IMG/VR virus record: IMGVR_UViG_3300047322_000110
Location: 1 to 31,945 of that record
DNA length: 31,945 nucleotides
DNA from: a virus
Reading direction: 5' to 3' (one strand)
This document shows, in pieces, positions 23,761-31,805 of this stretch (its first letter is position 1; the number at the start of each line of letters is the position of its first letter). The translations under genes were made by a program, and so were the position numbers. The notes beneath the pieces were generated by a model. It made no database searches. It was not told the DNA's origin and worked only from the letters and a program-made list of their open reading frames with translations.

Positions 23761-24396
23761 TCAGTGGGCCACGCGCTGCACGAGGTTGACCGCATCGCCG
23801 TGGCCCTTCAAGTTCTCGACCCATACGCCATCGAGCGAGGTGAGGTCATCGCCCCAAAAGCCGAACTCTTGGGCGATCATGAATGCTGCCTGCGGATGCG
23901 GGAGCCGGTTGTTGCTGCGGCTGATACTCAGGTGCCGGCATAGCCCGCACGGGTGGCCAGTCTCAAAACTGAACGTCACCATGAAGCCGGCGGGGATGTC
24001 GATTGTCTGCGCCGTCATCTGCGTCATGTGCGCGGCCTTCAGTTTGGGCAGCTTCAGCCGCTCCGTGATGCCGACCATGTTCACCGGTTTCTCTTGCGCC
24101 GCCGCGACCAGCTGCGCGATCTGCTTGCGCTCGTGGGGGCCGATTAGTAGCGCGCTCATCGGCTGTTCGAAAACTTGTAGTTCATCCGAAAACTTGTAGT
24201 TCATCGGCGGCTTGTCCGTGGCGAGTGCGGCGTCCATCTGCTTCACGCTGTAGCCGCGCAGCTTGAATTCAGCCTTCGTCTTGTAGGGCATGTGGCTCGC
24301 ATCCGCCAACAGCTTCGCCCATGCCTCATCGGCCGTGTCGCTGGCCAGCCACGTGACGATCGTGCCACCGGGCGTCACCGGATAGTGCTTCTTCAT
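23761..24396 (-). CDS. Fused hypothetical protein made of two small phage proteins (fusion by a 19-bp duplication)
   Basis: 211 residues from the ATG at 24396 (GAAGAAGAA ribosome site; its ATG overlaps the upstream stop as ATGA). Residues 1-70 look like one small phage protein (WLASDTADEAWAKLL, HMPYKTKAEFKLRGYSV). Residues 80-211 look like another, starting MSALLIGPHERKQIAQL and containing ETGHPCGLCRHLSIS and PHPQAAFMIAQEFGF. Between them an exact 19-bp tandem repeat (24168-24186, 24187-24205) shifts the frame by one. With one copy, the first protein would end after 73 residues at a TGA overlapping the ATG at 24159 of the second, the same ATGA junction as the other genes here. Both halves are of unknown function. 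Confidence 0.6.
   Translation of the reverse strand: MKKHYPVTPGGTIVTWLASDTADEAWAKLLADASHMPYKTKAEFKLRGYSVKQMDAALATDKPPMNYKFSDELQVFEQPMSALLIGPHERKQIAQLVAAAQEKPVNMVGITERLKLPKLKAAHMTQMTAQTIDIPAGFMVTFSFETGHPCGLCRHLSISRSNNRLPHPQAAFMIAQEFGFWGDDLTSLDGVWVENLKGHGDAVNLVQRVAH
24168..24205. repeat. Exact 19-bp tandem duplication
   Basis: Two adjoining exact copies of CGAAAACTTGTAGTTCATC at 24168-24186 and 24187-24205. Since 19 is not a multiple of three, the copies are read in two frames and the leftward gene stays open across them. The likely origin is replication slippage. Confidence 0.95.
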
Positions 24397-24623
24397 TGGT
24401 TCTTCTTCGGTAGCTTGTGCTCCCTGTCCATCCGGTAAGCGCGCCCGAGCATCAAGCCAGCCATCGTAGCCGCACCGCAGAGCAAGGCGAGGTTGATCGC
24501 CCTCGGCACGAACGACCACCATGGATCATTCCAGTGGTCGCACAGCGTCCAGACGTTCACCCCGATCGCGAGGGTTTCGCCGACGACGATTAACGTGCAC
24601 AGCTTCCAGAATGGCCAGATCAT
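24393..24623 (-). CDS. Small two-span membrane protein, unknown function
   Basis: 76 residues. Two hydrophobic spans are visible at about 4-27 (FWKLCTLIVVGETLAIGVNVW) and 39-62 (FVPRAINLALLCGAATMAGLML), joined by an aromatic loop with D, H and N, and followed by a basic tail (DREHKLPKKNQ). Both ends overlap neighbours by ATGA, so it belongs to the operon running from the winged-helix gene. Placement away from the lysis cassette argues against a simple holin, though that is not excluded; superinfection exclusion or another early membrane function is possible. Confidence 0.6.
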   Translation of the reverse strand: MIWPFWKLCTLIVVGETLAIGVNVWTLCDHWNDPWWSFVPRAINLALLCGAATMAGLMLGRAYRMDREHKLPKKNQ

Positions 24624-24853
24624 GGCAGATCGCTGAAGATGCGTTCGAACTCGGGCGTGGACTCGTACTGCTTCGTCGTCTTGTTGTACACGACGTTGTG
24701 GGGTGCGAGCTTGATGTACGCCTGCAGATCGACGCTGGCCTGCGGCTGCGACAGGCCGAAGTAATCCATGACCACCATGCGCCTGATCCAGCCATAGTGG
24801 TGCAGCATCCTATCGATGAATCGCAGACGATAGCCCTGCCCGTAGAGAATCAT
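24620..24853 (-). CDS. Stand-alone winged-helix DNA-binding regulator
   Basis: 77 residues from ATG 24853; the frame is open further upstream but holds no other usual start, and the ribosome site is weak. The sequence RLRFIDRMLHHYGWIRRM-V-VMDYFGLSQPQASVDLQAYIKLAPHN with a closing Y-N-K-T-T-K-Y is the winged-helix domain pattern found at the N-terminus of WYL-domain regulators such as those of BREX and CBASS loci. Here no WYL domain follows. It lies next to the origin-like region, whose repeats overlap its probable promoter. A role as operon repressor or copy-control regulator is inferred. Confidence 0.65.
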   Translation of the reverse strand: MILYGQGYRLRFIDRMLHHYGWIRRMVVMDYFGLSQPQASVDLQAYIKLAPHNVVYNKTTKQYESTPEFERIFSDLP

Positions 24854-24938
24854 TACCGATCGGTCTGTTTTGGTCGGAAGGAATTCTACAACCGATTTTC
24901 CCTTTAAAGCTTGTAAGTATAAAAAGAGTGTAAACCTA

Positions 24939-24967
24939 TATATAGAGGGGGCTTCGTAAGTGCACAA
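24939..24967 (-). promoter_or_regulatory. Candidate promoter for the winged-helix operon
   Basis: On the minus strand TTGTGC (24967-24962) and TATATA (24944-24939) are separated by 17 bases. The -35 is poor and lies inside the first GTGCACAA repeat, so whatever binds the repeat would block it. The long leader (about 85 bases) to the ATG at 24853 is otherwise unexplained. Confidence 0.35.
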
Positions 24968-24975
24968 AACGCACC
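24960..24975 (+). repeat. Iteron-like repeat copy 1
   Basis: GTGCACAAAACGCACC, first of three related 16-mers. With copy 3 on the other strand it forms an imperfect inverted repeat spanning 24960-25040. Confidence 0.65.
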
Positions 24976-24992
24976 TTACCCCCCTCCGCAGG

Positions 24993-25008
24993 GTGCACAA
25001 TATGCCCT
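24993..25008 (+). repeat. Iteron-like repeat copy 2
   Basis: GTGCACAATATGCCCT, same orientation as copy 1, starting 33 bases later (about three helix turns). Its end is part of a small hairpin (CCCTAT / ATAGGG, 25005-25021). Confidence 0.65.
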
Positions 25009-25024
25009 ATGAAGAATAGGGGTA

Positions 25025-25040
25025 GGGGCATTTTGTGCAC
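25025..25040 (-). repeat. Iteron-like repeat copy 3 (inverted)
   Basis: On the minus strand GTGCACAAAATGCCCC, differing from copy 1 at three positions. It completes the symmetric arrangement of the region. Confidence 0.65.
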
Positions 25041-25054
25041 TCATACGAATAGCC

Positions 25055-25074
25055 TGTGGATAAAGTTATTCACA
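25055..25074. promoter_or_regulatory. Two opposed DnaA boxes
   Basis: TGTGGATAA at 25055-25063 is the complement of the perfect box TTATCCACA, and TTATTCACA at 25066-25074 fits the relaxed consensus. They face each other across two bases and form a near-palindrome CCTGTG...CACAGG. The stop codon of the Rep-like gene (25070-25072) lies in the second box. Host DnaA binding is the natural reading; the hairpin might also act at the mRNA end. Confidence 0.65.
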
Positions 25075-25663
25075 GGCCCGCGACTTTCGCTGAGCGGTTC
25101 TCGATCAGCTTGCGCATCGCCTCGGCCAGCTGTGGGTCTTTCAACGCGTTGAAGATCATTTCGGCGTTGTTCTGCGTGGACTGGTCGTTGAACTGGTTGA
25201 ACGTAATGTGCAGATGGATGTGTTTGCCGTCGAGGTCGCCGCTTTTAAGCAGCGCCTTCAGTTCATCCACCGGCTTTTGCCATTCGAACGGCAGGTGGGA
25301 GAAATCGGCCTTGGCGTATGGTTCCCCGTTTTTCATTATCGGTACGTGCTCCGTCAGCTGGTACGTGTTCGGTTTGCCGCCCTGCGTCCGCGCTCGCTTG
25401 AGATACCCCATCGACTCTAGGTGATTGAGCATGTCTTTCACCTTCCGCTCGCTCATACCTGCGCCCTTGGCGATCACATCGATCGTCGGGAACTTGTCGG
25501 GGTCATCCGCGATGTTGATGTGGTACTTGACCACGATGTACACCGCCAGCCCGTACGGCGTCATTTTCGCCAGTGCCCCCGTGGCGATCATGGAGTGGAA
25601 CACGTGGAGCCAGCGCAGGTCGGCGTCTAGCTCATCCTTCTCGGTGGTCTCGGCTTCGGTCAT
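25070..25663 (-). CDS. Winged-helix Rep-like replication protein
   Basis: 197 residues. After an acidic start, WLHVFHSMIATGALAKM-PYGLAVY leads to a winged helix at about residues 58-103 (PTIDVIAKGAGMSERKVKDMLNHLESMGYL, then the wing KRARTQGGKPNTYQL). The C-terminal half has DFSHLPFEWQKPVDELKALL and ends with mixed helix. Proteins with this start and helix pattern occur beside ParA genes on plasmids and phage-plasmids and are taken for replication or copy-control proteins. The start overlaps the RHH gene stop (ATGA), and the gene ends within a DnaA box of the origin-like region. A plain transcription regulator is the alternative. Confidence 0.6.
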   Translation of the reverse strand: MTEAETTEKDELDADLRWLHVFHSMIATGALAKMTPYGLAVYIVVKYHINIADDPDKFPTIDVIAKGAGMSERKVKDMLNHLESMGYLKRARTQGGKPNTYQLTEHVPIMKNGEPYAKADFSHLPFEWQKPVDELKALLKSGDLDGKHIHLHITFNQFNDQSTQNNAEMIFNALKDPQLAEAMRKLIENRSAKVAGL

Positions 25664-26046
25664 GTTTTCTGCCCAATCCGTTTCATGAGTTCGGCAACGA
25701 CAGGCGCGGCGGACTCCACCAGCACGTCGGTCATCGTCTTTCCCCCGAACTTTTGGATCATCTGGAGATCGTCGAACAGGCTGACCGGCACGCGGATCGT
25801 CATGGGTACGCGCGGCTCGCGCTTCTTCACGAAGCCCCTCAAGTCGTCGACCGATACGATCGTCCGCCCCTTCGGCTCCGCGGCGCGCTCGGCCGGCGGC
25901 GGGGTTGTCAGTCGAACGGGTTGCGGCGCGGGCACCACACTGGGCTGCTCGGCGTTGTGTGCGGCGGCCAGCAGCTTGTCTCGGTCGACGGGCGGTTGCG
26001 CGGCGCGCGCGCCGAGTTGGATGCCGGGTGTGGGTGTCTTAGCCAT
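25660..26046 (-). CDS. ParB-like partition partner with ribbon-helix-helix domain
   Basis: 128 residues. Residues 1-75 are Pro/Ala-rich and flexible (PPVDRDKLLAAAHNAEQPS and so on). Residues about 81-123 form a ribbon-helix-helix domain: strand MTIRVPVSL, helix FDDLQMIQKF, turn GGKT, helix MTDVLVESAAPVVAELMKR. Small proteins with a loose N-terminus and an RHH C-terminus (ParG type) act as centromere binders and repressors, with the N-terminus touching ParA. Its start overlaps parA by eight bases. The repeats upstream of parA (26778-26804) are the natural candidates for its binding site. Confidence 0.7.
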   Translation of the reverse strand: MAKTPTPGIQLGARAAQPPVDRDKLLAAAHNAEQPSVVPAPQPVRLTTPPPAERAAEPKGRTIVSVDDLRGFVKKREPRVPMTIRVPVSLFDDLQMIQKFGGKTMTDVLVESAAPVVAELMKRIGQKT

Positions 26047-26692
26047 TGCTGATTGCCTCGTTGAAAAACGTATTGATGTTCTCGGTGGCCTTCACGTCGC
26101 GTGCGCCGCCATCCATTTCGATCACCGACAGGCCGACGCTCAACGCGTCCTTGAATACCTGCCGCCCGAAGATCACCGTGTCGCACGGCTCGAAGAACTG
26201 CTTGTACGCCTTCAGCGCGGCCGTAACGGTGCGCACGTCGCGGCTGTTACGCGTGGTCGGCGCGTTGTTGATCACGGCACGGCACCGGAAGCCCGCGCCC
26301 GTGGCACGCAGGCTCTCTATCAGGTCGGCCGCGTCGTCGAGCGCCCATACCTCGAACTGTCCGGGAATCACCGGGACCACCACGAGGTCCGCCAAACCAG
26401 CCGCAATAGTCAGCGCAGGGCCGCCCGTACCCTTGACGTCCACGACGACCACATCGCTGCTCTGCGATGCCGCCTGCAACTCGTCGAACAGGTCGTCTTT
26501 CGGGATGAGCAGGTCGATGCGCGGTCGGATGCCGAGGTTTCTGCGCTGATCGCACCACTTGCCGCCACTCCGCTGAACGTCCGTATCGAAGAACGTCACG
26601 CTATGCCCACGGGCGGCGGCTATTGCGGCGATGTTCGTAGCCAGCACGCTTTTCCCCACGCCACCCTTCGGGTTGGCAATCGTTATAACCAT
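26039..26692 (-). CDS. parA: ParA-family partition ATPase
   Basis: 217 residues, the length of small ParA proteins without an N-terminal HTH. The deviant Walker A PKGGVGKS sits at residues 8-15 (Lys9 signature and Lys14), the A' motif FFDTDVQRS at 34-42, and Walker B VVVVD at 81-85 followed by KGTGG. It should dimerise on ATP, bind nucleoid DNA and move the replicon with its partner. First gene of a leftward operon with the RHH protein and the Rep-like protein, joined by short overlaps. GGAG lies about ten bases before the ATG. ParA is rare in lytic phages and points to low-copy plasmid upkeep. Confidence 0.9.
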   Translation of the reverse strand: MVITIANPKGGVGKSVLATNIAAIAAARGHSVTFFDTDVQRSGGKWCDQRRNLGIRPRIDLLIPKDDLFDELQAASQSSDVVVVDVKGTGGPALTIAAGLADLVVVPVIPGQFEVWALDDAADLIESLRATGAGFRCRAVINNAPTTRNSRDVRTVTAALKAYKQFFEPCDTVIFGRQVFKDALSVGLSVIEMDGGARDVKATENINTFFNEAISNG

Positions 26693-26718
26693 GTTGTAGT
26701 CTCCAAGTAGGAGCCTCC

Positions 26719-26747
26719 AGCATAGTTACAGTAGGGAATAGTTACAA
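26719..26747 (-). promoter_or_regulatory. Promoter of the par operon
   Basis: On the minus strand TTGTAA (26747-26742) and TATGCT (26724-26719) are 17 bases apart, 27 bases before the parA ATG. The direct repeat ATAGTTACA (26722-26730 and 26738-26746) overlaps both elements and is a likely repressor site. Confidence 0.5.
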
Positions 26748-26756
26748 GGTGTCTTA

Positions 26757-26804
26757 CGTGCGGGACCGCACGCAACTTGTACGTACGGCTGTACGTACGT
26801 ACAG
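26757..26804. promoter_or_regulatory. Candidate centromere / operator repeats upstream of parA
   Basis: The 274-base space before parA holds a seven-base-arm dyad (CGTGCGG / CCGCACG, 26757-26772), a direct repeat TGTACGTACG at 26778-26787 and 26790-26799, and a perfect 16-base palindrome CTGTACGTACGTACAG at 26789-26804. Par centromeres are commonly found here, just before the ParA gene. Confidence 0.5.
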
Positions 26805-26854
26805 CAGGAGGAATGTAAGGAAGGTTCCCCGGCCGCCTCGCTTATCGCATAACA

Positions 26855-26874
26855 CTACCGGCCGAAGCCGGTAG
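26855..26874 (-). terminator. UUCG-loop hairpin, possible terminator of the replication operon
   Basis: Eight-base perfect stem CTACCGGC / GCCGGTAG; read leftward the loop is TTCG closed by C-G, the very stable tetraloop. It stands about 90 bases after the stop of the 90-residue gene and before the par promoter. Only a weak T-rich stretch follows (TGTTAT), so termination may be partial. Confidence 0.4.
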
Positions 26875-26966
26875 GGCGCTCACGATATGCAGCAAGGCTT
26901 TGGGCGCGGTTGCCGGGGGTTCACCGCCGCGTTGAGCGCCGCTGTCGTCAACTCAGGAGGATTTCG

Positions 26967-27239
26967 TTATGACGGGTCGGCGCGGGTGGCGAGCCGATCG
27001 GCGACGAGCTTGGCGTAGCCAACAATGTCGTGCCAATTGTCGTGATAGTTAGGGTCGCCGTTGAGCATGCGCGCGATCTTGTCGGCGATGGTCTCAAGCG
27101 CCTGCGCTTGGTCGGGCGCGAGCCGGGACCAGCCGGGGTTCCTCCACATGGACTCCTTGATCCGCTGGCAGATCGCCGCGTGGGTTGCGAAGTCACCGTA
27201 GCGCGCGCCGCGCTCGGCGAGGGTGGCGTTAATGTCCAT
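26967..27239 (-). CDS. Small conserved phage protein (DUF6378-like)
   Basis: 90 residues. The chain AERGARYGDFATHA, then a basic helix, W-R-N-P-GWSRLAPDQAQALETIADKIARML and NGDPNYHDNWHDIVGYAKLV follows a family of small phage proteins of unknown role, which I believe is called DUF6378. The conserved D-N-W-H-D and E-T-I-A-D-K residues in helices recall MazG-like nucleotide hydrolases, but the match is loose. It begins one base after the primase-helicase stop, so the two are co-transcribed. An accessory role in replication or nucleotide supply is inferred. Confidence 0.6.
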   Translation of the reverse strand: MDINATLAERGARYGDFATHAAICQRIKESMWRNPGWSRLAPDQAQALETIADKIARMLNGDPNYHDNWHDIVGYAKLVADRLATRADPS

Positions 27240-27240
27240 G

Positions 27241-30144
27241 TCAAATTCCAGTCGTTGAACGCAGGGTCGCGCCGCTGATCATCCAGCAACGCGTTTGCCC
27301 TTTCGAATACACGGTGTCGGCACCGAGAACCTTTTGTGCATTGCGCTTGGCCAGCACGCCGTCGCGCTCCAGATTCGCCTCGAACACGCGGAAGCTCGTG
27401 CGGTGCTCCGCGCAGTACGCCATGACCGCCGTGCGCGAGACGTAGATCGTGTCGGTGTCCAGTTCGTGCCGGATCATCAACTCGTCGAACGGCTTGATCA
27501 CGATGTTGTCCAGATTCGTTGCGCCCTTGGGCGACAGCGCCAGCGTGTTGCGCACGTGGCCGTCGAGGAACTGGGTCAGCAGTTCGACCGGCGTCGAGCC
27601 AGCCTCACGAATCGATTCGCGTTGGCGCGTGAGCAGCGCGATCATCCACTTCAGGTCGTCCTCGAACGGGAAGTCGAGAATGCCGGCCTTGCTGGCGATC
27701 TGCGCGGCGGTGTACGCGGCGGCGACGACTGCGGACCAGTAGCGCTCGGCCGAGGCGTTGCGCGAAGCCAACAGGCGGTCGACCTTCTCGACGTTGCGAA
27801 TGTAGAGCTTGCGCACTTGTTCGTAGTGCTGAGCAATATAGCGCATAAAGAGCGCGCCCGCGTGGCCATAATTCTGCCCCATGGCGCGGATGAAACGGTC
27901 GGCTTCGATCTTCGCGTCGGCGCGCGCATCGACGAGCGCGAATTCCACGCTCACCACGCGCATGAGGTGGGGGTCCACGTCCTTGCCGGTGGACATGAGC
28001 GACGTGAGCGTGTCGGCGTTCGTGGAGGTCAGCGTGAGGTTCGCCCACGTGTCCAGACGGCCCACCATCGTGCCGTCAGCCTGCATGCGGCGCTTGCCTT
28101 CGCCTTGGCTGATATTCAGTGCAAGGCGGCGCAGTTCGTCACTGTCGCGCTCGGTGATGTCGTCGAGCAGGAAGGGCAGGGAATGCACCGTGCCGAGCGT
28201 GCTGTACAGCGCGTTGGTGGTTGCACCTTCGCGGTTGCCGTTGACCACCAGTGCCTCGGGCGAACCCCACACGGACGAGCAGGCTTTCAGGCAAGTCGTC
28301 TTGCCGCGCCCGGATGCGCCGCCGGCCGCGAGCATCGCGCCCTTGTTGCCGGTGTCGTTCATGTGGAAAAGCGGCGAGCCGAACGAGGCATAGAGGAAGA
28401 AGCGATGCCCCTCGTAGCCGGGCCGGTTGAAGAACTGCATGGCCTGCTGCCAGCCGGCGAGCGTGCCCGCCGTCTTGAGGCCGTTCTTGGTGGTCGCGCG
28501 GATCGCGTCGCTCGCGGTGTGCGGCGTGCTGGTGCCGTCGCGGTGGATCACACGGTCGCCGAGCACGAACGTCTCGTGACCATCATGCCAGCCAAGGCGC
28601 TCGTACAGCTGATCGCGCCCGGCTTCCTTGGCCAGCTTTTGCAGGTAGGCAGACATATAGAGTTGCGTGAACTTCGGTTGATCCCCCGACAGCACGACGC
28701 CCTTGCTGAACAACAGCTTGGACAATCCACGCTGGTCGGCCAACAGTCCGAGCGGCACCGCGAAGTCGCGCGGCTCCGTGCCTGCGCCGCGCTTGAGCGG
28801 CAGGTGCGCACGCCACATGCTGTGCTCGTCGATCTCGGTGTCCGTGCCGTTCTGGCTGCGGATCGCGAGCGGGTAAAGGTCGTACGGGCAGATGGTCTCG
28901 AATGTCGGCTTGCCGTCCTGATCCTCGTGCTCGCGCACCACCGCGCCATCGGCGCGCCGCGAGTAGCCCGTGGGGAACTCCGGGCGGGTGAGGGTGATCG
29001 TGACAGGCGTCTGGTCGATCGCGTCCGGCGCGGGCGGCACCGTGATCTGCATGGGCGGGGCAGGGGTGTCGATGATCTGGCGGCCCAGCTGCGCGGGCGA
29101 CGTGAGCTTGCCCCAGTGCGGGCAGGACTCGCACGTGGAAGGATTCAGCTGGTGGAAGTGCGTGCACTTCGTCGGCCCGGCGTTCCAGTTGATGATCTTC
29201 TGCTCAGTACGTTGTGCGTCAAAGTCAGGGTGGCCATCGGAGATCACGCGCGCGGCGGCCGCCTGCTGTTCGCAGAACTTGACGATGCCGAGGCCAGCAC
29301 GCCACAGCTGTTCACCGGAGTCGCGCCCGCGCGCGCCGGCCTGCGCCTGCAGCTGAGGGCAGTGGAACACGATGCGGTCGAAGTTCAGCGGGTCGTTGGT
29401 CGCGCCGAGGTTGTCGCCAGCCCCCCACACGTCCACAGCCGGGCCAGAACCGAGGGTGCCGACCTTCGACCTACCTGCGGTCGTGGCGACGCCGTGGAGG
29501 CCCGCGTATCCCATGATGCGCTGAGCGAAGTCCTCGAACGCGATCGGGGGCGGGGGCGGGACCATCAACGAGACCGGCGCGCTGCGCTTGACGTTGTAGC
29601 TGCCGAGCACGCGCAGCACGCGCGCCTCGTCGGAGGTGAGACTACGGTCGGCATTGAACTGCTCGTGCACGCAGATCGCCTTGAACTGCTCAGCGATCGG
29701 CTTCCACTCCGCGGTGGTCACGTCCTGCACGAGCGGCCAGTACGCGTGGATGCCGCCGCCGGAGTCGACGATGAGCGGCCGGGGCAGGCCGACCTTTTTC
29801 ACAAACGCCTTGAGGCTTTGGCACGCCTGATCCTTGGAGTCGAAGCACAGCGGGTCGCCCGGCTTCACGTCCAGATCGAGGAAGAACGACCGGATTGCGC
29901 GGGCGTTGGCCTGCGTGCGACGCCGCCACTTCTGCGCCGCGTCGTCGAAATATTTATCCTTGTCGTACCCGGCCATCGAGAAATACGCGGGCCGGTTCTC
30001 GAACGTCAACTGGTTGACGAGATCGACGGCTTTATCCAGCGACCGATGAGGGATGTTGACCCAACCGCCTTGCGCACTGGGCGTGGCGATAAAGATCGCC
30101 CCCGAACGGGGGGTCAGCAGCTGCAGGAAATCACGCGTATTCAT
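27241..30144 (-). CDS. Primase-helicase (AEP-like primase with DUF927-type helicase)
   Basis: 967 residues. The N-terminal third looks like an archaeo-eukaryotic-type primase: FFLDLDV (Asp90, Asp92) as the metal-binding motif, SGGGIHAYW (128-136) as the second, and RVLRVLGSYNVKR (175-187) as the third. A Cys/His cluster at about 324-341 (C-x-H, then C-x-x-C) can bind zinc. The C-terminal half holds a Walker A GGASGRGKTT near residues 606-615, followed by LPFLLDDI as Walker B and a region with LTLTSTN like a sensor, as in DUF927 helicases. It would unwind and prime at the phage origin. It lies after a small HTH gene with a 29-base gap. Confidence 0.8.
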   Translation of the reverse strand: MNTRDFLQLLTPRSGAIFIATPSAQGGWVNIPHRSLDKAVDLVNQLTFENRPAYFSMAGYDKDKYFDDAAQKWRRRTQANARAIRSFFLDLDVKPGDPLCFDSKDQACQSLKAFVKKVGLPRPLIVDSGGGIHAYWPLVQDVTTAEWKPIAEQFKAICVHEQFNADRSLTSDEARVLRVLGSYNVKRSAPVSLMVPPPPPIAFEDFAQRIMGYAGLHGVATTAGRSKVGTLGSGPAVDVWGAGDNLGATNDPLNFDRIVFHCPQLQAQAGARGRDSGEQLWRAGLGIVKFCEQQAAAARVISDGHPDFDAQRTEQKIINWNAGPTKCTHFHQLNPSTCESCPHWGKLTSPAQLGRQIIDTPAPPMQITVPPAPDAIDQTPVTITLTRPEFPTGYSRRADGAVVREHEDQDGKPTFETICPYDLYPLAIRSQNGTDTEIDEHSMWRAHLPLKRGAGTEPRDFAVPLGLLADQRGLSKLLFSKGVVLSGDQPKFTQLYMSAYLQKLAKEAGRDQLYERLGWHDGHETFVLGDRVIHRDGTSTPHTASDAIRATTKNGLKTAGTLAGWQQAMQFFNRPGYEGHRFFLYASFGSPLFHMNDTGNKGAMLAAGGASGRGKTTCLKACSSVWGSPEALVVNGNREGATTNALYSTLGTVHSLPFLLDDITERDSDELRRLALNISQGEGKRRMQADGTMVGRLDTWANLTLTSTNADTLTSLMSTGKDVDPHLMRVVSVEFALVDARADAKIEADRFIRAMGQNYGHAGALFMRYIAQHYEQVRKLYIRNVEKVDRLLASRNASAERYWSAVVAAAYTAAQIASKAGILDFPFEDDLKWMIALLTRQRESIREAGSTPVELLTQFLDGHVRNTLALSPKGATNLDNIVIKPFDELMIRHELDTDTIYVSRTAVMAYCAEHRTSFRVFEANLERDGVLAKRNAQKVLGADTVYSKGQTRCWMISGATLRSTTGI

Positions 30145-30581: not shown

Positions 30582-31805
30582 TTAGTCGTCGGTGTCGTCC
30601 CAGCCATCGAGCAGGGCAGACAGGCCAGCCGGCGTTGCCGACTCCGTGCCCACACCCGCTTGCGGGGCGATCGGCTCGGCTGCGACCGGCGCTGCCGCCA
30701 ACGGGGCCGGCGCGTCGTCCTCATCGTCGTCATCGTCCTCGGCGCTCGCCGCCGCCGCTGCCGCCGCTGCTGCCGCCGCTGCCGCTGCCGCCGCCGCTTC
30801 TGCTGCCGCCTTGGCCTTGGCGTCCTTCGCTGCCTTCTTGCGTGCCTTCTCGGCCGCTACCGCTTCGGCTGCTGCCTTGGCTTCTGCTTCGGCCTTGGCG
30901 GCTTCGGCCTTCGCCACCGCGTCGATCGCGTCGACTGCCGCCTCAGCTGCGGCGACCTTCGTGGCCTTCACCGTGTCCGTTGCCGCCGGCAGGGACGCGA
31001 CGCCATCGGTCGGGATGCCCGGCGTGCCGGTGAGGCCGTCGTTCAGACCCGAGCCGGACAGGATTTTCGCGATGTCATCCACCGAGTCGTTGAGCATTGC
31101 CTTGGCGGCCACGGCTTCGTCGGGGTTCAGCCAGCGCGATGCCGAGAACAGCAGCTTCGGGTAAGCCATGCGCTTGTCGAACTTACAGCGCGTCTCCACT
31201 GCGGCCGTATGCTTCGCGCCGCGTGCGCGCAGGAAGTCGAGGTACTGGTCCCATGCGAACCAGCCTTGCGCTTCGTTCTCGGCGTTGTCCTTGTCCCACA
31301 CCGAAGTCTGCGCCAGACGCAGCAGCAGCGGCACGTGCTTGCCGATGCCGCCGACCGGGACCACAGCCACGCGCTTGTTCGGCGCGCATGCCGTCGTCGG
31401 CTTGCCGTTGTCGCTGATCTTCGAACCCTTCACGGCGTTCGGGCAAGTCGCGCACGTGGCCGCACACGGCTCCTTCACATTGGCGTCGGGCTTCACGCCG
31501 TCGCTCGATGCGCACGTCGGGGCCTTGTTCGCGCCGTCCTCGAAGCCACCGTCGTAGAAAGCGCGGCTGCGGCTCTTGTTGTGGTCGAGCACCACGATGT
31601 TGACGATCTGCGCCGGCACTTGGTCGCCGTTCACGTCTTGCATGAGGTCGGTCTCGCTGCCGTCGATCATGGTGCGCCAGACCTTGCCCTTGAACTTCAG
31701 CGCGTTGATGCCGTTGCGTTGCGCGATATTCGCGTCGTCGCCCCACAGCGAGTCGAGGTGTGCCGGGACGCCAGCGCCGCTATTGAAAGGAATGAGGTTG
31801 CTCAT
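30582..31805 (-). CDS. Candidate ssDNA-binding replication protein with Cys cluster and acidic tail
   Basis: 407 residues. Residues 1-235 look like a family of phage proteins found beside primase and exonuclease genes: FKGKVWRTM, IVVLDHNKSRSRAFYDG, SSDGVKPD, then a cysteine cluster C-x3-C-x2-CPNA-x-KGS with another Cys after it, and VPVGGIGKHVPLLLRLAQTSV. Residues about 270-355 are Ala/Lys/Glu-rich helix ending in a long Ala run. DDDDDEDD follows, and the protein ends WDDTDD. A flexible linker with an acidic end is the layout of SSB proteins, which recruit partners by that end. The function is inferred. AAGGA precedes the ATG. Confidence 0.55.
   Translation of the reverse strand: MSNLIPFNSGAGVPAHLDSLWGDDANIAQRNGINALKFKGKVWRTMIDGSETDLMQDVNGDQVPAQIVNIVVLDHNKSRSRAFYDGGFEDGANKAPTCASSDGVKPDANVKEPCAATCATCPNAVKGSKISDNGKPTTACAPNKRVAVVPVGGIGKHVPLLLRLAQTSVWDKDNAENEAQGWFAWDQYLDFLRARGAKHTAAVETRCKFDKRMAYPKLLFSASRWLNPDEAVAAKAMLNDSVDDIAKILSGSGLNDGLTGTPGIPTDGVASLPAATDTVKATKVAAAEAAVDAIDAVAKAEAAKAEAEAKAAAEAVAAEKARKKAAKDAKAKAAAEAAAAAAAAAAAAAAAAASAEDDDDDEDDAPAPLAAAPVAAEPIAPQAGVGTESATPAGLSALLDGWDDTDD

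Follow-up and report, generated by a model that had tools for sequence, protein, structure and literature searches.

The virus record IMGVR_UViG_3300047322_000110 of IMG/VR, of which the whole stretch of 31,945 bases was analysed (the window), very probably derives from a temperate podovirus that carries a low-copy plasmid replicon at 24,398-26,826 and, judged from sequence comparison, would keep its prophage as a free plasmid. An initial annotation of the same DNA had proposed a temperate phage maintained in this way. Comparison with other elements supports that proposal: the gene order of the module recurs in a plasmid and in a phage-plasmid element, circular kin phages hold plasmid modules at the same position, and the prophage of the Ochrobactrum podovirus POI1126 was experimentally shown to be a plasmid (PMC5492332). 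Virion and lysis genes were found on one side of the window, and partition genes together with a plasmid initiator, recognized by its homology, its gene order and the origin features next to it, on the other.

Kin of the virus were collected with an alignment of its DUF927 primase and two distant phage homologues. Such a protein is encoded by 470 stretches in IMG/VR, and the best 80 of these were retained. When ParA, Rep or the primase was used alone in pattern-based scans, neither IMG/VR nor bacterial genomes gave any match. The clade with more than 50% primase identity is small and comprises nine records including the window. The closest kin among the best 80, G007 (63,289 bases), has a primase of 88% identity, and G001 (64,981 bases) one of 59%. 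Each of the two has identical ends of 127 bases, consistent with closed circular assemblies, and both are syntenic with the window, although circular contigs do not by themselves demonstrate a lysogen. On alignment of the window DNA with G007, the flanks were 86% (27400-26827) and 91% (24397-24187) identical, and no alignment was obtained between them. The plasmid maintenance unit, initially placed at 23,761-26,966, is thereby narrowed to a variable part at 24,398-26,826, while 23,761-24,397 is flanking phage DNA that is partly conserved in the nearest kin. The GC content is 0.590 in this slot and 0.658 in the rest of the window. The slot and its features are as follows:

24398-26826, minus strand: whole exchangeable slot with the plasmid-maintenance cassette, from the DNA alignment with G007
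26722-26803, minus strand: repeats upstream of parA (TGTACGTACG/CGTACGTACA arms and a ATAGTTACA pair), candidate partition site and operator
26039-26692, minus strand: parA, short ParF-type (class Ib) partition ATPase, from its motifs, phrog_164 and ParF
25660-26046, minus strand: small ribbon-helix-helix (RHH)-like protein of 128 aa, likely the centromere-binding partner of ParA
25070-25663, minus strand: rep, candidate winged-helix replication initiator, from profile matches and relatives in a Polaromonas plasmid and an A. baumannii phage/plasmid
25055-25074, both strands: two DnaA boxes in inverted orientation (TTATCCACA at 25055-25063, minus; TTATTCACA at 25066-25074, plus)
25028-25040, minus strand: iteron GTGCACAAAATGC, by pattern match
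24993-25005, plus strand: iteron GTGCACAATATGC, by pattern match
24960-24972, plus strand: iteron GTGCACAAAACGC, by pattern match
24890-24948, no strand assigned: AT-rich stretch adjoining the iterons, possible unwinding region, from the sequence
24620-25000, minus strand: small slot gene, true start probably the ATG near 24853
24393-24623, minus strand: small slot gene, open reading frame without confident family

The kin phages fill this slot differently. In both G007 and G001 an RHH-like gene accompanies a ParA that differs from that of the window and between the two. They are joined in G007 by a gene without family matches and in G001 by a clear plasmid initiator of the RepL family (PF05732, E 1e-32), which is accepted as a plasmid initiator family in Polaromonas (PMC6015842). 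The slot of G002 holds a tyrosine integrase (PF00589), and G002 is read as an integrated prophage because the next gene after the integrase is bacterial rnr. A fixed position whose contents are exchanged, each of them apparently serving lysogenic maintenance, is the strongest argument that the module keeps the prophage in the cell. That separate kin keep different plasmid modules in one slot, and that the operon of the window is intact with overlapping genes, makes it very unlikely that the phage is strictly lytic and that ParA has a role in the lytic phase or is a passive leftover, even though no repressor was identified in the window, which covers about half a genome, and several kin are without any such module. 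An assembly chimera of phage and plasmid is hardly conceivable: the record is likely of metagenomic origin and the GC content of the slot is below that of the rest, but one kin phage matches the window in order on both sides of the slot, and par modules occupy the same place in independent circular kin.

The genes parA, partner and rep candidate overlap as one operon on the minus strand, with overlaps of 8 bases between parA and the partner gene and of 4 bases between the partner gene and the rep candidate. ParA (217 aa) contains the motifs KGGVGKS, DTDVQ and VVVVD with Walker A at residue 9, so that the clear Walker motifs noted initially were confirmed. It matches phrog_164 ('ParA-like partition protein', E 1e-33), its best solved relative is ParF (E 1.6e-9), and as a short ParA without N-terminal helix-turn-helix (HTH) it has the form of class Ib. 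For the 128-aa partner, no family match was obtained in profile searches. Its last 45 residues can be aligned with the partners of two kin phages, and by this alignment its C-terminus looks RHH-like. Its structural model is weak (C-terminal pLDDT 72-79) and yielded fold matches mostly to RHH proteins (Arc, CdbA, ParD, MatP, AtaR), every one of them with an E value of at least 1.3. Of the RHH partner described initially, the location of the gene at parA thus stands, and the RHH fold is suggested by the C-terminal alignment and, weakly, by the model. Upstream of parA, the TGTACGTACG/CGTACGTACA arms lie at 26778-26787 and 26794-26803, ATAGTTACA occurs at 26722 and 26738, and six of the seven GTAYGTA/TACRTAC sites of the window are found there. 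Other repeat tests on this region were not significant, nor were repeats upstream of parA in G001 (shuffle test).

The Rep candidate matches phage replication-initiation families with E values of 1e-8 to 3e-7 and phrog_28562 with 7e-13, which agrees with its initial description as a Rep-like winged-helix protein. Rep_3 and other curated plasmid Rep families did not match it, HTH_36 and DnaD-like families appearing only below the cut-off, and no match to RepL (PF05732) was found either. By sequence, the winged helix also matches TubR (E 0.001) and, without significance, AspA. Together with the missing match to a curated Rep family, these hits would suit a cassette for partition and regulation only, in which the winged helix is a regulator or a TubR- or AspA-like third partition protein and the phage primase module replicates the genome. 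We regard such an arrangement as improbable: DnaA boxes and iterons directly follow the gene here and in plasmid pA29BJ2, where no other Rep is annotated, the phage replication-initiation families match at E 1e-8, and a true RepL occupies the corresponding slot of G001. Fold matches of the Rep candidate were discarded as evidence, all having E values above 0.03 and coming from a poor model.

An origin-like region beside rep had been part of the initial description and was borne out by two kinds of sites. The DnaA box TTATNCACA occurs twice in the window, both times within 20 bases directly after rep, with 0.14 occurrences expected. The degenerate pattern GTGCACAAWAYGC has three exact matches inside 81 bases and no others in the window. 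A genome-wide iteron test also scored repetitive coding stretches and was hence redone by shuffling the intergenic region; three copies were reached in 1 of 200 shuffles of this 176-base region for 13-mers and in none of 200 for 16-mers. The GC content of 24900-25075 is 0.44. Iterons, DnaA boxes and an AT-rich stretch thus lie beside rep as in an iteron-type theta origin; the origin is predicted to work in this manner, but with a Rep outside the known Rep families.

When 72,556 plasmids were searched with Rep, only two records encoded it at this sensitivity, both in the order ParA, small protein, Rep; two phage records were also obtained, of which one matches solely in the winged helix. The Polaromonas plasmid pA29BJ2 has a ParA of 32% and a Rep of 33% identity, arranged with a small gene as in the window. 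Immediately after rep come three palindromic CCCTTAT...AAGGG repeats and three DnaA boxes, and the annotation of the 104-kb plasmid lists no further replication initiator. The plasmid differs from the window in its iteron sequence and in having no annotated virion genes. In Acinetobacter, phage vB_IME_Ab2712 and plasmid pRBH2-3 share with the window a ParA of 28% and a Rep of 27-28% identity, again with the gene order of the window and a small gene in the middle. Over 96% of a 25-kb query, the two A. baumannii records share 98.7% identity, so one element is deposited as both plasmid and phage, and homologues of the cassette therefore sit in one plasmid and one phage/plasmid element. In contrast to the window, vB_IME_Ab2712 is a 75-kb phage with a different gene set; repeats after rep in pRBH2-3 were not significant in the shuffle test.

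From these features a mode of maintenance can be proposed. The three iterons downstream of rep would be bound by the winged-helix Rep, which together with DnaA at the two adjacent boxes would open the AT-rich stretch for theta replication of the circular prophage. The repeats upstream of parA would be bound by the RHH-like protein, perhaps with repression of the operon as a further effect; together with the ParF-type ParA, this protein would distribute the copies at division by class Ib partition. In this manner the prophage could persist as a free plasmid, presumably at low copy number, and the slot would fulfil the role of the integrase found in at least one relative, G002.

A phage with two modes of lysogeny, in which an integrase in the missing half integrates the prophage and the cassette serves as a backup for an episomal phase, has precedents. 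F116-like phages are reported as plasmid or mixed prophages: F116 encodes an integrase although it is described as a plasmid prophage, and phiC725A both integrates and persists as an episome (PMC5217972). POI1126 has a putative integrase besides its par operon (PMC5492332), and the circular plasmid record pANC7919.1, which is F116-like, has an integrase in its annotation. We nevertheless consider such a dual mode unlikely here, as no tyrosine integrase (PF00589) was found in the circular kin G007 and G001, and that of G002 is located in the slot itself. Further observations weigh against a plasmid prophage as such. The window is a fragment, and whatever repressor or integrase genes lie beyond its half of the genome are not seen. 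The temperate nature of the phage is not proven, because no canonical LexA/CI repressor with S24 peptidase domain is present in the circular kin G007 and G001 and G007 has only a weak match to HTH_3, proteins of which are encoded by G001 and G006. In five further records of the clade, some of them fragments, the searches made revealed no clear ParA and no tyrosine integrase; G010 among them has a marginal ParA-profile match only (E 7e-4, 13.5 bits). Finally, Rep resembles general winged-helix regulators as much as initiators, and its AlphaFold model is of poor quality (mean pLDDT 57).

Beyond the free plasmid prophage, a wider interpretation stands at about an even chance. The single slot beside the lysis genes, a few kilobases in size, may be a lysogeny socket in one 60-65 kb proteobacterial podovirus lineage, into which unrelated plugs fit, and by exchanging one cassette close relatives would change from plasmid to integrated life or back, and from one incompatibility type to another. 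At the same even chance, the plugs would be the ParF-RHH module with the new winged-helix Rep/iteron replicon, ParA-RHH with RepL, a third ParA module with a putative Rep, and an integrase with attP. The family of the winged-helix Rep would then represent an undescribed replicon type common to plasmids and phages; the Rep of the window is absent from 20 kin records. No tRNA genes, as possible attachment sites, were found in the kin.

Plasmid-prophage podoviruses are already known as a kind from POI1126. Like the window, this 60-kb podovirus has a par operon on the opposite strand that faces the virion and lysis genes; unlike the window, its partition genes are of RepA/RepB type, and its sequence similarity to the window is confined to the giant virion protein (23%) and a weak match of ParA. 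An exchange of parABS for integrase is likewise already known from cluster A mycobacteriophages, in about 20% of which parABS substitutes for the integration cassette (PMC7157519). In RedRock and Miko, the partition and replication cassette, with RepA or RNA-based origins, is colinear with the integrase cassette of close relatives (PMC7157519). These phages are likened to the window by layout; they have actinobacterial hosts and different ParB, RepA and origin types. Burkholderia phage KS14 is a proven plasmid prophage (PMC3091744) with a ParA 33% identical to that of the window, but it is P2-like and no homologous Rep was found in it. The Pseudomonas phages F116 and phiC725A share homologous head-closure and virion proteins with the window (27-31%), whereas no cassette comparable to that of the window was found by tblastn. 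The Bcep22-like phage JC1 integrates in rimO (PMC9144972), and therefore virion similarity alone cannot decide the type of lysogeny.

What appears to be undescribed is the Par-Rep type and the swapping of modules in a proteobacterial podovirus lineage. Podoviral phage-plasmids have rarely been described, and podoviruses are unmentioned in the main text of two phage-plasmid papers. In parallel to the cluster A mycobacteriophages, the lineage points to a route from chromosomal to plasmid lysogeny by a single cassette swap, the cassette being a small natural replicon of about 2.4 kb. Tools for plasmid typing and phage-plasmid detection that depend on curated families may miss such elements, because neither Rep nor the RHH-like protein scores above the cut-off of any of them.

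The cassette is bordered by the following phage genes:

22587-23759, plus strand: lysis genes (holin, lysozyme, holin-like) facing the cassette, 49-88% identity in G007
26967-27239, minus strand: DUF6378-like gene, conserved upstream border of the slot, 69-93% identity in G007, G001 and G002
27241-30144, minus strand: DUF927 primase/helicase of the phage replication arm, 53-88% identity in kin

On the plus strand up to 23,759, the window encodes a head-closure protein, further virion proteins, a 2,273-aa protein and the lysis proteins. The minus strand encodes a 407-aa protein, a small HTH protein, the primase/helicase and the DUF6378-like gene, followed by the cassette. Of the full virion and lysis set claimed initially, virion, holin and lysozyme genes are present, but the virion set is not full: among the window genes, none was recognized as terminase, portal or major capsid gene. 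Presumably these genes lie outside the fragment; about half of the phage genome is likely absent from the window because full-length kin with the same gene order measure 60-65 kb.

Of the small slot genes, the product of 24620-25000 is 52% identical over 65 aa to a gene adjoining the par module of G001 (64678-64872), and the two kin phages thus have a small protein in common beside par modules with different Rep types. In G002, a small gene judged PrtN-like by eye, the tyrosine integrase and rnr follow each other at 36393-40407, with the attachment site presumably in the interval between the latter two. G007 encodes a small serine recombinase of the invertase/resolvase kind at 46278-47065, followed by an AlpA/excisionase-like gene of 70 aa. 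With 192 aa the recombinase is too short for a large serine integrase; its possible roles are multimer resolution or inversion of tail genes.

Two plasmid records were noticed in addition. The 60.5-kb circular E. coli plasmid pSTEC648_2 (CP061838.1) has phage-like genes and a distant DUF927 primase (24-25%); an annotated RelE/HigA toxin-antitoxin pair lies between its primase and lysis genes (32464-38956), and a ParB-like gene elsewhere. Among 5,426 E. coli genomes, none was found to contain similar DNA. The plasmid looks like another undescribed phage-plasmid. The Acinetobacter record pANC7919.1 (NZ_CP156790.1), 60.7 kb and circular, encodes F116-like virion proteins, a terminase, an S24 peptidase and the integrase, and is likely an episomal prophage. 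In the window itself, the 407-aa protein (30582-31805) is kept across the kin and contains a long alanine- and acid-rich run of low complexity.

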